IMG/VR virus record: IMGVR_UViG_3300048672_000976
Coordinates: 1-58,725 of that record
Strand: one strand, 5' to 3'
From: a virus
Length of the DNA stretch: 58,725 nt
This document shows, piece after piece, positions 1 to 42,717 of the stretch. Position numbers and translations under genes: made by a program. Below the pieces are notes generated by a model that was not told where the DNA came from, searched no databases, and saw only the letters and a program-made list of their open reading frames with translations. Every line of letters begins with the position of its first letter. Position 1 is the first letter of the stretch.

Positions 1-937
1 CAATAACACCATTCACAATAAACGTTGTTCCGTAACTTTGTTTTGTTCTAACATCATAAAGTTTCATTAAGTCTGTTTTCAATTCATCTTTATTTTTTTT
101 AAAAACATATTGAAACAATTTTATTTTACTAATTCTACTTAATATTTTATTTGAATATTTGTATTTTTCACTAATTAATTTTAAAAAATTTACATAATCA
201 CATTCTTTTATTGTATTAATTAAAAAATCAAATTCACCATTATTTATGTTTACTTTATAAAATTCTTCAACATAATTATTACTATTTCTTTTAATAATTG
301 CATCTAATGATTTGGAATTTTTTTTAATATTAATTTCGTTTATATTTGGCTTGTTTTTTATTTTATTAACCCAATTAATTTGACGTTCATTATAAATTTT
401 TTCACCATCAATAATACCGAATTTCTTTATACATTTTTCTAATGTAAATGTTTTTTGTACATCTTTGATTTTTTCTTTTGATTCCTCTTCATTAAAACCT
501 TTATTTAACCAATAACCAATACTACGTGGTGAATGAATTTTACCATGTAATGACTTTTTTTCATTGTACATTTTTGAACCCTCAATTTCACCATATTTTA
601 TAATAAATGCTCTCTCAGTATTCATTAAATGTAATTCAACTTTTAATTTGCTTTCATCCAAATTAAAGCCTCTATGTTGCCAATATTCAACTAAACATGG
701 TTTCATAGTTTTAACTTTATATAATGCATCATCATAACCCATTCCACGTTTAATCCAATAATTTACACTAAATGCAGAGCCATTTATTTTTTCAATACCA
801 TTTTCTTTTAATATTCTAGTTATAACACTACCATCACATTTGAAATCTTTTGATATTTCCAATACCGATTTAAAATTATTAATATAATCTTCTTTAATTA
901 TATTTATTTGTTCTTCATTAAATTTTAGTTTTCCCAT
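1..937 (-). CDS. Homing endonuclease-like protein, partial (3' end beyond window)
   Basis: An uninterrupted frame begins at an ATG at 935-937 and stays open to base 1, giving about 312 residues with no stop, so the gene is truncated by the window. The N-terminus (about residues 6-45) looks like a helix-turn-helix segment ending RILKENGIEKI. Next come three degenerate repeats with the pattern YW-x-x-R/K-G-F/M followed by acidic residues and K-V/I-K/E (YWIKRG, YWQHRG, YWLNKGF), interleaved with two Y/F-G-x-I-E/D-G-x-K-x-YNE units. Repeats like these occur in phage homing endonucleases. The last visible residues, SYGTTFIVNGVI, resemble the entry to a Vsr-like (EDxHD) nuclease domain, which would lie mostly outside the window. 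It sits 46 bases after the truncated gp46 gene, where a nuclease would lie between the two halves of a fractured split-intein gene. The homing function is inferred; the catalytic residues are not visible. Confidence 0.72.
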   Translation of the reverse strand, partial: MGKLKFNEEQINIIKEDYINNFKSVLEISKDFKCDGSVITRILKENGIEKINGSAFSVNYWIKRGMGYDDALYKVKTMKPCLVEYWQHRGFNLDESKLKVELHLMNTERAFIIKYGEIEGSKMYNEKKSLHGKIHSPRSIGYWLNKGFNEEESKEKIKDVQKTFTLEKCIKKFGIIDGEKIYNERQINWVNKIKNKPNINEINIKKNSKSLDAIIKRNSNNYVEEFYKVNINNGEFDFLINTIKECDYVNFLKLISEKYKYSNKILSRISKIKLFQYVFKKNKDELKTDLMKLYDVRTKQSYGTTFIVNGVI

Positions 938-983
938 AATAATAAATATTACAGGGAAAACTAAAAGCTAAAATAAATACCAT

Positions 984-1535
984 TTATTTTAATTCATCGG
1001 GCAGAAAGCCTATTTTTTTTATAATTTCATTTTCATCAAATTCAATTTCTATTTCAGTATCTGATCTAAGGCACTTACCACCGAAATTTTTAGGCGAAGA
1101 TTCAATAACAGTAATACCATCCATTTTTGTGAAATCAATTGTGTTGTTTTCACCAAATGATAAAAAATTTGAAAAATCAATCTTTTTAATAAACCAACGG
1201 TTATATTTAACCGAATTTTGATTGTTTTTTACTATTTCAGCATTAACTTTATTATCTAATCTATCAATTAAATTCCACTTTACATCGATTTTATTATCGT
1301 TGATAAAATCTTTAATTAATGATTTCTGATATTGCTGATCCAATAATTTATCACTAACATCTAATGAACTAAGATTAGTATTTATATTTAATACTTTAGC
1401 AACCGGAACAACTTTTACTGATGATGTATGATACTTATTCTCAAAATAAGTTTTAACCCTTTTGATTTTTTCTTGAGTTAAATTTTCAGGTGTATCTTCC
1501 CAAACTACCTTTATATAAGGTTTAATTTTTGACAT
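984..1535 (-). CDS. 46: gp46/SbcC/Rad50-like ATPase, N-terminal half ending in a split-intein N fragment
   Basis: The first half of the ATPase subunit of the gp46/47 (SbcCD, Mre11/Rad50) recombination nuclease. After an N-terminal extension of about 115 residues of unknown role comes the typical start of an SbcC head: IKKIDFSNFLSFGE (about 117-129), then IDF, ITVIE and a P-loop-like PKNFGGK (148-154). The Ser/Thr expected after this Lys is missing. The frame instead continues CLRSDTEIEIEFDE, an intein block A signature starting with Cys155, and stops at residue 183. The coiled coil, signature motif and Walker B are absent, so this product alone cannot be a functional ATPase. The remainder is expected beyond the window with an intein C fragment. 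gp47 lies upstream, separated by two small genes. The start at MSKIKP is the first in frame; the extension makes the true start less certain. Confidence 0.85.
   Translation of the reverse strand: MSKIKPYIKVVWEDTPENLTQEKIKRVKTYFENKYHTSSVKVVPVAKVLNINTNLSSLDVSDKLLDQQYQKSLIKDFINDNKIDVKWNLIDRLDNKVNAEIVKNNQNSVKYNRWFIKKIDFSNFLSFGENNTIDFTKMDGITVIESSPKNFGGKCLRSDTEIEIEFDENEIIKKIGFLPDELK
987..1073 (-). other. Split intein N-fragment (29 residues) in gp46
   Basis: Residues 155-183 of the gp46 reading frame. They start with Cys directly after the P-loop Lys and read CLRSDTEIEI..., with the spacing and hydrophobic pattern of intein block A, then end in a natural stop after a short acidic/helical stretch. 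Blocks B, F and G, needed for splicing, are not present here. Known atypical split inteins with very short N fragments (the AceL-TerL type, about 25 residues) have the same organisation. The function is inferred from position and motif; the complementary C fragment was not visible in the window. Confidence 0.75.
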
Positions 1536-1538
1536 ATT

Positions 1539-1901
1539 TTATTTATTATTATTCTCAAATAATTCAATTATACTATTTAACGCCCATACTGAACCTGCTG
1601 TAAACATGCCATCATAAAATATTCCTATAATTGGCAAGCAATCAAAAACATTGTGGAAAAAACCACCTAATGTGATTGACATAAAAAAACCAACCCAAGT
1701 TGATGTACATAACATACAACTTACTAAATCACCTAAAAAAATTGATTTTCGTTTAATAAATTCACGAGCAACTTCAAAAATTGACCCATAAACAATTATT
1801 GTTGACATACCATATGCTGCAACAATCCATAATAATATAATATAAAATTCCATTAAGTAAAAATAATTAAAAAAAACCAAAATAAGAAATTTATTCATCA
1901 T
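1539..1901 (-). CDS. Small membrane protein, DUF1360-like
   Basis: A hydrophobic protein of up to 120 residues with three or four likely membrane segments. The centre carries the motif GDLVSCMLCTSTWVGFF (about residues 57-73), with two Cys in CxxC spacing followed by T-S-x-W-V-G. This matches the conserved core of DUF1360-type membrane proteins found in phages and bacteria, whose function is unknown to me. Two starts are possible: Met1/Met2, overlapping the upstream gene's stop (ATGATGAATAA), or Met17 (base 1853), which begins MEFYIILLWIV and resembles a normal family N-terminus. I favour Met17, although the overlap would allow translational coupling. It lies between gp47 and gp46, where T4-like phages usually have no membrane protein. 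Confidence 0.7.
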   Translation of the reverse strand: MMNKFLILVFFNYFYLMEFYIILLWIVAAYGMSTIIVYGSIFEVAREFIKRKSIFLGDLVSCMLCTSTWVGFFMSITLGGFFHNVFDCLPIIGIFYDGMFTAGSVWALNSIIELFENNNK

Positions 1902-2127
1902 ATAATGATGTTTCCTTTGGTATTATTTTAGGTTCCTCGATTATTTTTTTTTGTACACTATTATGGTTGGGTTTTTCACCATATTTTAAAATATTAAAAC
2001 CTTTATTAAAAACTTCTAAGGCCATTTTTTCCACATCCTCAATGTTATTTAGTTTACAATATTGGACAAATTCATTATCCAATATTAATGAGTAATTCTT
2101 TACCATCTTCAATATCTTTAATGTCAT
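1891..2127 (-). CDS. Small conserved phage protein of unknown function
   Basis: A 78-residue, mostly helical, highly charged protein. If started at Met1 it overlaps the 3' end of the gp47 gene by 53 nt; Met8 (base 2106, MVKNYSLILDN...) reduces this to 32 nt and gives a more natural N-terminus. The recognisable portion is the stretch from DNEFVQYCKLNNIEDVEK to FNILKYGEKP. I have a general impression of similar short proteins in large Bacteroidota and T4-like phages, but no function can be assigned. The C-terminus is rich in Lys, Glu and Pro. Its stop overlaps the next gene's first possible start, so the two are probably translated from one message. Confidence 0.6.
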   Translation of the reverse strand: MTLKILKMVKNYSLILDNEFVQYCKLNNIEDVEKMALEVFNKGFNILKYGEKPNHNSVQKKIIEEPKIIPKETSLYDE

Positions 2128-2878
2128 TTATCACAAAATGATAAAAAGGATTATTATTTTCAATATCATGAAATGTGTATTCATTTTTTAACACATCAAA
2201 TAAACCATAACCATGATGTTTAACTGTCTCGGCAAAGTTTTGTTGAATAAAACTACCAATTTGTATTCCATCACCGCCATTTGGTAATTTAAATCTTTGT
2301 CTCATATGGATATCACCACATAAAGCAACATCACAATCAACAAAATTAAGTTTATCAAATGCATCATCAAATTCATACCCCATTTCTGTTGATAAACCCT
2401 TTATTGGGCCATGAAACAACGCAACATAAACAAAACCTTCCTCCTTTTCAAACTTTGGTTTTTTATTATGCTGATAAAGTGAATATACAACCCATTTAAT
2501 ATTTAAATCATCATAGATACCATAATCTTTATAATAAACAACTCTATCATTATTTAATAGTTTTACTATTGGTGTTATACTATCTAATCGTTGAATGTTA
2601 TTTTCCAAAAAATCATGATTACCCGGTATAATAATTACTTTAGCTATTTTGCTTAATTCATTCAATACCCAAGAACATAAAATTAATTGTTCATTCGATA
2701 TATTTACTTTTTGATGAACAATATCGCCTGTAATTACAATCCGTAATTCAGATTCGTCAACACCATTAAATCGTTCATTTAATTCTATAAACAATTTTTT
2801 AAATTGGTCACGATAATTATCATGATATTGTATTGTTCTAATATGTAAATCACTAATATGTATTATTGTTTTTATCAT
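2075..2878 (-). CDS. 47: gp47/SbcD/Mre11-like recombination nuclease subunit
   Basis: The calcineurin-like phosphoesterase subunit of the gp46/47 complex, which processes DNA ends for recombination-dependent replication. All metal-binding motifs of the SbcD/Mre11 family are visible in order: HISDLH (D10, H12), GD (D52), GNHD (N87, H88, D89), a histidine in LFHGP (H156), and CGDIH (H191). At 267 residues it is shorter than T4 gp47 (339) and lacks most of the C-terminal cap, but the catalytic core is complete. The start overlaps the stop of the upstream nuclease by 4 nt (ATGA), indicating coupling. Its ATPase partner gp46 lies about 540 bases downstream but is broken by a split intein, so complex assembly would depend on trans-splicing. 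Confidence 0.93.
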   Translation of the reverse strand: MIKTIIHISDLHIRTIQYHDNYRDQFKKLFIELNERFNGVDESELRIVITGDIVHQKVNISNEQLILCSWVLNELSKIAKVIIIPGNHDFLENNIQRLDSITPIVKLLNNDRVVYYKDYGIYDDLNIKWVVYSLYQHNKKPKFEKEEGFVYVALFHGPIKGLSTEMGYEFDDAFDKLNFVDCDVALCGDIHMRQRFKLPNGGDGIQIGSFIQQNFAETVKHHGYGLFDVLKNEYTFHDIENNNPFYHFVINDIKDIEDGKELLINIG

Positions 2879-39966: not shown

Positions 39967-42717
39967 TTATTCACAATTTATACATTCTAAAATATTTCTT
40001 ACAAACGATTGGGCCGAACTTTTACTAAATTGATAGTATAATGTTTTAACACCTTCTTCGTGTGCATATAAATATAATTTATTTATATCTTTCGTTGGTA
40101 TTGATGGGTCAATCATAAGATTTAAACTTTGTGATTGATCAATAAATTTTTGTCTTTGTGCCGCCTGTAAAACAACCTCTTTTGGCGATATTTCAACAAA
40201 CGTTTTAAATACTTCTTTTGTTGGAAAATCCAAATGTTGTACCGAGCCATCTTTAGCCAATATACTTGACCATGTTTTATCATTATTTAAGTTATATTTA
40301 ATTAGTTCATCAATTAAATATGGGTTTTTATAAACAGTTTTAATTTTAGCTAAATCTTTTACAAAATAATTTGATTTAATTGGCTCAATCCCCATACTTA
40401 CTTGCCCTAAAATAAATGAACTAGATTTAGTTGGTGCGATAGCTACTAATGTTGTGTTAGCATAACCATCACGAATAGTTTTATATTTTTCAGGGTCTTT
40501 ATTATAAAGATCTTTTGATGTTGCATCTGTTCTTTCTTTTAGGGTTCTGAAAATTTTACTATTATATTGTTTAGCCTCAATGGATTCAAACGGTATTAAT
40601 TTTGATTGTAATAATGAATGATAACCTAAAACACCAACGCCAATTGCTCTATGATGTGTGGCAAATCTCCATGCTCTCTTCATACCTGCCATATTAGATG
40701 ATTTTGTTATAAATTCATCTAAAACAGCATTTAAAAATAACGTATAAATTTCAATTGCATCTGTTTTTTCAATTTCATCCCAATGTAATAGATTAATTGA
40801 ACCTATACAACAAACAAATGAATTATAACTATCTGTTGGCAATTGAATTTCTGAACAATTGAATGTTTTTAACCCATTAGAAACGAAAATATGTTCATCG
40901 TTGTTTATTGTTGGACAATAAATATCTTCATTTTCTACTTGTTCAATTGACACAACTTTCGTTTTCTTTTTTGTACTATCCAAATATTTTCTATTATCAA
41001 TTTTAATATTTTTTCTTGATAAGAAACCGGTTTTTTCTTCAATTATTAATCCATCATTTTTACTACCAAATATGAGTCTCCAACATTCTTTGGTTTTATA
41101 CATTTTTTTACCACCTTTACCATCAGGTAATAATGTCTCGCCTTCTTTTCTTAAACGATGAATACTACAACTTAAACCTAAATTAGTAAATAAAATTTGT
41201 AATTCATTTAAAAAATTTTTGTTTATATCAATATATGAGATTTCGAATGATTCACCATATTTTGATGATTTATTAACAGAACCATCAGCATATAATAAAC
41301 CCTTTAAATATTGCCATATTGTATTTTCATTAGATTCCCATATCCAAGATGGAACATACCCTTTTTCAAAATTTAATGATTTTTTTAAGGTTTTTGATGC
41401 TAATCGTTTTTTTAATACTAATGATTGATTAACCTTACAATTAAAAAATTTTGCTGGTTTTCTTTTTCTTACTTTATTCGTTAATCCAGTTTGATTAGTA
41501 ACAAAATATTCATCACATTTATATTTATAATGTATATTATTAAATTTATTCTGAATATCATCGATTAAATCAAAATCATTCTCCCAAATATCTAACATTA
41601 TTATGTCCTTATTTTGAGTACCATCTGATTGATATAAACCTAACAAATAAGCCTCATCTGGCATATCTATTTGCCCAAAAATACCTTTATTAGTTTGAAA
41701 TGGTATTGCATCGCCAATATTTAAATCTTTTGCTTCAATTCTTCTAATTTTATTATTTTTATCAATTACAGGTATTCCATGGTTAAATGAAACTTTTTGT
41801 TCCATTCCGTTTGAATATTTTATTTTTAAAATTTCAGCATTTTTACCTCTTAATAACATTGGTGATGATTTTACAGTCTCCGTACCGTTAAATAACGTTA
41901 ATTCATCACCATTTTCATACAATTCTTTAGCTGTTAAATAACCTTTATTTGTTACAACTCGTTGATCACCTGTTAAACAAAGATTACTTGCTGTTATTTC
42001 TAAACCTAATTCTTTATAAGGTGTGTTATTATTTGTATTATCCTTAAACATAATATAAGGAAAACCAAATTCACTACGTTTTTGAATTACTTTGGCCCAA
42101 ATTTTACGTTTTACCATATCGCCACCTTTCATTTCTTCAAGCCACTTATCAGTAACTGTAACACCAAATTGTAAATTTTGGATTGGGTTACCCTCAGAAC
42201 CAATATCTAAGAATTCATTAATATCATCATGTTCAATTGGTAAATAAACAGCACAAGCACCTCTTCTAGCTTCTGATTGTTTACAAACATCAATTGTTGT
42301 ATCATATAATTTTGCATAATGAACAGGACCATCAGCTTTGCCTCCTGTCGAAATACGAGTACCTCTAGGTCTAATATTACCTAAATATGCTGATGTTCCA
42401 CCCCCATATTTTGACATCATACCAATTTCTCTACTAGCATTTAATATGCTATCCATAGAATCGTCAATATTGGAACCATAGCAACTGATTGGTAATCCTT
42501 TCTCTTTTCCAAAATTAATCCAAACAGGTGTTGATAAACTATAATAGCCTTTTGCCATATAATCTTCGAACTTATCAGCAAAACCATCTATTTTGAGAAT
42601 TTGTTCTGCTTTATTTGCAATGTTTTTTATTCTTTGTTCTACCGATTCGTCAATATAACCTCTCGATAAAAATAAACGAGCATCTTCATTTGCCCAATAA
42701 TATTTTGTATAATTCAT
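39967..42717 (-). CDS. nrdA: Ribonucleotide reductase large subunit NrdA, with intein
   Basis: 916 residues including an intein at 247-620; after splicing the enzyme would be 542 residues. Catalytic features are present: Cys79 in PISCYG, the thiyl-radical Cys621 in the reassembled motif SNL/CSEIQLP with Glu623, partner Cys in SFVCCIG, LYYQF tyrosines near the end, and terminal CxxC (C912, C915). An N-terminal ATP-cone is missing and the core is much shorter than T4 NrdA (754), so overall activity control may reside elsewhere or be lost. The intein interrupts directly before the catalytic Cys. NrdB lies upstream, thioredoxin directly downstream. It makes deoxynucleotides for phage DNA synthesis. 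Confidence 0.95.
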   Translation of the reverse strand: MNYTKYYWANEDARLFLSRGYIDESVEQRIKNIANKAEQILKIDGFADKFEDYMAKGYYSLSTPVWINFGKEKGLPISCYGSNIDDSMDSILNASREIGMMSKYGGGTSAYLGNIRPRGTRISTGGKADGPVHYAKLYDTTIDVCKQSEARRGACAVYLPIEHDDINEFLDIGSEGNPIQNLQFGVTVTDKWLEEMKGGDMVKRKIWAKVIQKRSEFGFPYIMFKDNTNNNTPYKELGLEITASNLCLTGDQRVVTNKGYLTAKELYENGDELTLFNGTETVKSSPMLLRGKNAEILKIKYSNGMEQKVSFNHGIPVIDKNNKIRRIEAKDLNIGDAIPFQTNKGIFGQIDMPDEAYLLGLYQSDGTQNKDIIMLDIWENDFDLIDDIQNKFNNIHYKYKCDEYFVTNQTGLTNKVRKRKPAKFFNCKVNQSLVLKKRLASKTLKKSLNFEKGYVPSWIWESNENTIWQYLKGLLYADGSVNKSSKYGESFEISYIDINKNFLNELQILFTNLGLSCSIHRLRKEGETLLPDGKGGKKMYKTKECWRLIFGSKNDGLIIEEKTGFLSRKNIKIDNRKYLDSTKKKTKVVSIEQVENEDIYCPTINNDEHIFVSNGLKTFNCSEIQLPTDSYNSFVCCIGSINLLHWDEIEKTDAIEIYTLFLNAVLDEFITKSSNMAGMKRAWRFATHHRAIGVGVLGYHSLLQSKLIPFESIEAKQYNSKIFRTLKERTDATSKDLYNKDPEKYKTIRDGYANTTLVAIAPTKSSSFILGQVSMGIEPIKSNYFVKDLAKIKTVYKNPYLIDELIKYNLNNDKTWSSILAKDGSVQHLDFPTKEVFKTFVEISPKEVVLQAAQRQKFIDQSQSLNLMIDPSIPTKDINKLYLYAHEEGVKTLYYQFSKSSAQSFVRNILECINCE
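40858..41979 (-). other. NrdA intein (374 residues) with intact LAGLIDADG endonuclease
   Basis: Residues 247-620 of NrdA. Splicing blocks: A begins CLTGDQRVVT (Cys1), B has KVSFNHGIPV, F has EDIYCPTINNDEHIFVSNG, and G is LKTFN followed by C+1. The penultimate residue is Phe, not the usual His. The two LAGLIDADG motifs, YLLGLYQSDGT (about 357-367) and LKGLLYADGSV (about 471-481), both retain the Asp-Gly pair, so the homing nuclease could be active. C+1 is the catalytic cysteine of NrdA, so activity strictly needs splicing. Confidence 0.9.

Follow-up and report, generated by a model that had tools for sequence, protein, structure and literature searches.

The window analysed here is the whole of IMG/VR record IMGVR_UViG_3300048672_000976 (58,725 bases, classed linear and therefore possibly a fragment). 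We are confident that its gp46 gene is fractured, and that it carries the first half, ending in the very short N fragment (IN) of a split intein, together with a free-standing homing endonuclease (HEN) gene. The elements and coordinates that an earlier note had claimed for this DNA, i.e. a gp46 frame running to NFGGK, 29 intein residues, a stop, 46 bases and a HEN frame, are correct to the base:

1074..1535, minus strand: N-extein, residues 1-154 of a gp46/SbcC(Rad50)-like protein, ending at the P-loop Lys (NFGGK); 65% identity to the intact gp46 of locus L001
987..1073, minus strand: IN CLRSDTEIEIEFDENEIIKKIGFLPDELK, 29 residues, its Cys1 adjoining the P-loop Lys; E 1.3e-15 with an IN profile built without the window
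984..986, minus strand: TAA stop closing the IN; place kept (29 or 30 residues) in seven other fractured gp46 loci
938..983, no strand: spacer of 46 nt from the IN stop to the HEN start, read from the sequence; 49 nt in L165 and 59 nt in L122
2..937, minus strand: HEN-type gene, first 312 codons, ATG at 937, still open at base 2; 56-57% identity to the HENs of L166 and L167

The open reading frame at 1535..984 (minus strand) comprises 183 residues: 154 gp46-like residues ending ITVIESSPKNFGGK (ESSPKNFGGK), then CLRSDTEIEIEFDENEIIKKIGFLPDELK, then the TAA. Judging from sequence, the gp46 protein of this phage is very probably made as two polypeptides that are joined post-translationally.

The break in gp46 and the intein N fragment

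The similarity of the window to its nearest intact gp46 (L001, 780 aa) ends at residue 154, which is the P-loop Lys; past this Lys, L001 reads NFGGK/STSSVDLLMFLFF (STSSVDLLMF; slashes mark junctions). Intact gp46 alleles without the element exist: in the comparison set of IMG/VR loci retrieved with the L001 C half, all intact or nearly intact relatives, gp46 is uninterrupted in 61/61, and all that cover the junction read NFGGK and then S or T. The break thus sits at a splice-consistent point, exactly inside the ATP-binding loop. The window holds the gp46 N part alone, with the P-loop form PKNFGGK, and an intact gp46 elsewhere in the window, which the earlier note would have taken as evidence against a fracture, was not found. 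The intact homologue L001 hits SMC_N (4e-5) and SbcC_Walker_B (0.0015), both below Pfam cut-offs. For the 29-aa piece and both frames nothing informative came from Pfam, PHROG and NCBIfam, the pieces being too short or too divergent for such models.

The Cys1 and intein block A (CLRSDT...) directly follow the P-loop Lys, a conserved extein junction. An HMM built from the seven IN fragments of other fractured gp46 genes, with the window excluded, was run against 1276 six-frame segments of the window: the fragment scores E = 1.3e-15 and the runner-up 0.75. A broader HMM, made from 55 INs of diverse host genes, gives it 2.4e-9. A phmmer search of the 29-mer against PDB had no match. The window IN is 62-66% identical to the INs of L166 and L167, the extein 47%.

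Complete relatives and the intein C fragment

The fractured-gene layout that the earlier note had proposed, with split-intein halves flanking a nuclease gene, is borne out in close relatives. Loci were collected with a repeat-module profile, A2 (80 loci), and with another that has the window HEN at its head (75, partly on the same contigs). Two of them, L166 and L167, carry the layout in full: gp46-N with a 29-30-aa IN, a HEN, and an intein C fragment (IC) ending SHN/T and fused to gp46-C. L166 reads PPNFGGK/CVRYNTDIEIDFDVDYIVSKLGFLPDELKK and a stop, then the HEN, then a 122-aa IC ending SNGIVSHN/TVLSVDLLMFLFF; L167 reads SNFGGK/CVRRDTEIDIEFNIDYIVNKLGFLPDELK and a stop, then the HEN and a 122-aa IC ending SHN/TVLTVDLLLFLFF. 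Five more loci, L165, L122 (DNA identical to L123), L168, L169 and L173, share the L166-type plan with INs all of 29 aa. Thus the frame that the earlier note had expected beyond the break (an IC of about 100 or more residues ending in HN, then Ser or Thr and the rest of gp46) is present in all seven, with an IC of 122-128 aa ending SHN/T. More distant gp46/SbcC cases are L134, L144, L153 and L174. In L168 (5998-6510) and L169 (6015-6533) an extra open reading frame of about 171-173 aa lies between the HEN and the IC-gp46 frame.

Across 48 aligned ICs, five columns are invariant, which in established intein anatomy are a Gly, the block-B His, the block-F Asp, the penultimate His and the terminal Asn. 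Against PDB, the IC profile matches the gp41-1 intein (1.2e-21), VidaL (2.8e-20) and CatC (7.7e-18). An AlphaFold model of the L165 IC (pLDDT 96) has VidaL as its best PDB match (E 3e-8, TM 0.88 on the query); the IC of the relatives is accordingly predicted to adopt a Hint fold closest to that of VidaL. Exact DNA patterns for NFGGK/C, N/[ST]TxxVDLLM and the Rad50-type GxNGxGK/C gave chance matches only (L064, L067-L071), because the patterns required residues or codons absent from the true loci (e.g. /TVLSVDLLM and /TTFSVDAIKF).

The homing endonuclease gene

The window HEN has an HTH-like N terminus, YWxxxG repeats and a QxTFxLEKCIKKxG..xG...xERQ..W module, an anatomy read also from the aligned families A4-A6; its nuclease domain is cut off by the contig end. 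Over the N-terminal ~200 aa, HENs inside other fractured gp46 genes are 37-57% identical to it (56-57% for L166 and L167). An IMG/VR search with the window HEN alone found no relative and a HEN profile was needed; a scan of genome contigs found a single weak relative. The repeat module is common to HENs of cultured and uncultured phages; the C-terminal domains vary among loci. The predicted structure of the L166 HEN has Vsr (1cw0) and I-Bth0305I (3r3p) as best nuclease matches, with probability 0.98 but E of 0.08-0.12. By eye, the C-terminal part looks GIY-YIG-like in L101, L119, L144 and Campylobacter phage F379. The nuclease part thus differs between the HENs of L101, L119, L144 and L076 (GIY-YIG-like by eye) and those of L122 and L166 (Vsr-like by fold search). 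Since the C-terminal part differs while the repeat module is common, this suggests that nuclease domains are swapped between loci.

Selection and mobility

For IN, HEN and IC alike, dN/dS is 0.05-0.16 in both L168-L169 and L166-L167, so these parts appear to be under purifying selection in the relatives. Synonymous divergence in L168-L169 is 0.43 for the element and 0.65 for the exteins (block permutation p = 0.0005); the difference in L166-L167 is weak (0.55 and 0.64, p = 0.036). A lower divergence of the element is what would be expected of a moving cassette, though differences in codon usage may play a part. No co-conversion gradient was seen in the synonymous divergence of the exteins. In the N-extein tree the window groups with L166 and L167 (94/87), inside an intact clade. 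Multiple independent intein gains in gp46 are not shown by the gp46 tree (p-AU 0.145).

Proposed mechanism

We propose that a natural short-IN split intein entered gp46 directly after the P-loop Lys, ahead of the Ser or Thr that follows it, and that the free-standing HEN gene lies between the intein halves. The gp46 N-half-IN and the IC-gp46 C-half would be translated as separate polypeptides, and the 29-aa IN would dock into the Hint fold of an IC of about 122-128 aa. Cys1 would attack its own peptide bond and the N-extein be passed to the +1 Thr or Ser, after which the terminal Asn of the IC would cyclise, leaving the P-loop NFGGK-T/S intact again. Trans-splicing would be the only well-supported route to a restored P-loop, and the unseen half in this phage is presumably present and matching. 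The HEN presumably homes: it would cleave gp46 alleles that lack the intein at their P-loop codons, and in the repair of that cut the entire cassette would be copied.

With the ATPase dead until the two proteins are spliced, splicing could be a control point for phage recombination. The element lies in gp46, whose product probably assists in mending the breaks made in homing; as gp46/gp47 might themselves take part in homing (PMC2988022), the element perhaps occupies a gene that it needs.

Alternative explanations

A HEN may also split a gene without any splicing, the polypeptides then assembling non-covalently as in Aeh1 nrdA/mobE, and such genes in pieces are established in T4-like phages (PMC2988022). 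In the present case, however, the N piece bears a conserved IN (E 1.3e-15), the complete gp46 relatives have, ahead of the +1 Thr or Ser, an IC whose catalytic residues are all present, and a break internal to the P-loop would be hard to mend in that way; we regard non-covalent assembly as very improbable. As the contig is metagenomic and known from one record, one might suspect that the intein is an ordinary contiguous one and that the stop at 984-986 is a sequencing or assembly error; the earlier note had raised an error there as a possibility. Yet seven further loci on independent contigs (L166, L167, L168, L169, L173, L165 and L122) stop at the same point, after 29-30 IN residues, and continue with a HEN, while the downstream frame of the window is a HEN with its own ATG and no remaining Hint domain. 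The stop is therefore genuine, and an error is almost certainly not the explanation.

A decaying or half-lost element, with a genuine IN fragment but a gp46 that no longer works or lacks its C half, would fit both the absence of the other half from the contig and the divergence of the HEN C-terminal part from all relatives. We consider it very unlikely: the N-extein, IN and HEN frames are all open, the IN is closer to the complete loci than the extein is (62-66% versus 47%), and the break is simply the contig end. Several observations nonetheless weigh against a trans-spliced, mobile gp46 in this phage. Neither the gp46 C half nor the IC was found by tblastn in the other 57 kb of the window, where the earlier note's expected frame is thus lacking; IC, gp46-C and the nuclease domain would all lie beyond the contig end, and the phage could have lost them. 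Past residue ~200 the HEN has no relative in the locus set. The gp46 tree requires just two gains and does not rule against a single origin (p-AU 0.145), and in two other pairs of loci the synonymous divergence of element and exteins is not significantly different (p 0.16 and 0.085).

Relation to known systems

Dassa et al. (2009, NAR 37:2560) reportedly described genes fractured by split inteins that have a homing endonuclease between their halves, and also EDxHD HENs. Two later papers cite that work (PMC6892783, PMC12350094). The window layout is alike in that a gene is in two, with split-intein halves at the break and a HEN between them, but differs in its host (gp46), its very short IN, its P-loop K/(S or T) site, and the HEN subfamily, which has YWxxxG repeats and exchangeable nuclease domains.

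The atypical split inteins AceL-TerL, GOS-TerL and Cat-TerL have INs of 25-37 aa and, according to Table 3 of PMC11766414, all have Cys at +1. Together with VidaL (PDB 6vgv), they resemble the gp46 family in combining a short IN with a long IC, and VidaL is the closest in IC structure. The sizes also match the short-IN class (IN of ~25-37 aa, IC of ~100-115 aa or more; PMC11766414), with 29 aa for the window IN and 122-128 aa, in a predicted Hint fold, for the IC of the relatives. The comparison with AceL-TerL that the earlier note had drawn therefore stands for the split position and fails for the +1 residue, which is Ser or Thr in the gp46 family and Cys in the TerL inteins; the host is likewise gp46 and not terminase.

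Contiguous inteins occur at the classic P-loop Lys/Thr site, e.g. mycobacteriophage TerL1-a (PMC5050341). The position is identical, between the invariant Lys and the nucleophilic Ser or Thr, but TerL1-a is one polypeptide that splices in cis and has no free-standing HEN. The terminase of Campylobacter phage F379 (MT932329; IN 30 aa) and the phoH of LR756500.1 (P-loop IN 26 aa) have an IN-bearing N half, a HEN of the same repeat family, and an IC ending SHN with the C half; the LR756500.1 phoH has 46 nt before the HEN, as in the window. They differ from the gp46 case in their hosts, terminase and PhoH, and in the C-terminal part of the F379 HEN, GIY-YIG-like by eye and not Vsr-like. Campylobacter phage IBB_35 likewise has reported inteins, in its terL and phoH genes (PMC3322345). 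We found no description of an intein in gp46, SbcC or Rad50 in the literature searched, from which most subscription papers were absent. Fractured genes and short-IN split inteins are thus known already, and gp46 is a new host.

A wider family in phage ATPases

In a survey of loci L086-L240, 117 distinct HENs with the module were found, and both junctions were readable in 89. The element lies at GK/C ... N/(S or T) in 80/89 loci, with a +1 residue of Thr in 60 and Ser in 20, and elsewhere in the Walker-A loop in the remaining 9/89; since automatic scoring favours GK sites, the GK fraction is biased upward. Scanning of 92 C-exteins identified 43 as terminase large subunit, at least 19 as SbcC-like, 13 as ClpB-like ATP-dependent protease, 8 as DnaB-like, 6 as other DNA helicases, and one as PhoH. 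SbcC/gp46-like genes are therefore among the commonest hosts of the element family. The suggestion in the earlier note that gp46 would extend the atypical group holds, with gp46 as a new host but not a rare one. Related HENs also occur at other sites: at a PolB-like junction (second HEN of L101) and, outside the set, in ribonucleotide reductase (RNR), gyrase-like and PolB genes with long INs.

The family is large and mostly unannotated. On balance we favour the view that the window belongs to a mobile family not described so far, in which short-IN split inteins are combined with a common repeat-bearing HEN subfamily with interchangeable nuclease domains, and which is nearly confined to the Walker-A loop of ATPases encoded by phages (TerL, gp46/SbcC, ClpB, DnaB, helicases and PhoH). 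Gp46/Rad50-type ATPases join the hosts of natural atypical split inteins, as common ones. The loci also offer dozens of new natural split inteins with a very short IN and Ser or Thr at +1, a type wanted for protein labelling.

We note some peculiar loci: (i) In L127 (284-5852; IMGVR_UViG_3300042197_003333) a ClpB-like gene is fractured twice, into three pieces with two short-IN split inteins (GEPG/C and GVGK/C) and two HENs; its three polypeptides would need two non-interfering splicing reactions, without cross-splicing. (ii) The huge-phage genome LR756500.1 (L077, L084, L085) has three fractured genes, all with a HEN separating the halves; the IN is short in phoH and long in the RNR and gyrase/topoisomerase-like genes. 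(iii) The cultured Vibrio phage vB_VmeM-32 (KU160494.1; L066, 532-2499) has a fractured uvsX whose pieces are annotated as hypothetical proteins, with a SegG-like GIY-YIG gene lying between a typical long IN (intein_Nterm 2e-4) and an IC (intein_Cterm 8.5e-6). (iv) Split inteins fracture DNA polymerase B, with related HENs between the halves, in Campylobacter phage CP21 (L079, 3154-5010), where the halves are annotated as separate polymerase pieces, and in Nitratidesulfovibrio phage SRB7757 (L080, 1269-5810).

Other features of the window

Near the fractured gene lie two further genes:

1539..1901, minus strand: DUF1360-like small neighbour gene; also close to fractured gp46 (L166) and intact gp46 (L001)
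2075..2878, minus strand: gp47/SbcD-like nuclease gene, the gp46 partner; Metallophos 1.1e-10, phrog_100 1.3e-19

The DUF1360-like gene beside gp46 is conserved synteny across the window, L166 and L001. At 39967-42717 (minus strand) the window encodes an NrdA-type RNR with an apparent contiguous intein, running from CLTGDQRVV to FVSNGLKTFN/CSEIQL and bearing two LAGLIDADG-like motifs; one phage would thus carry a cis intein too.
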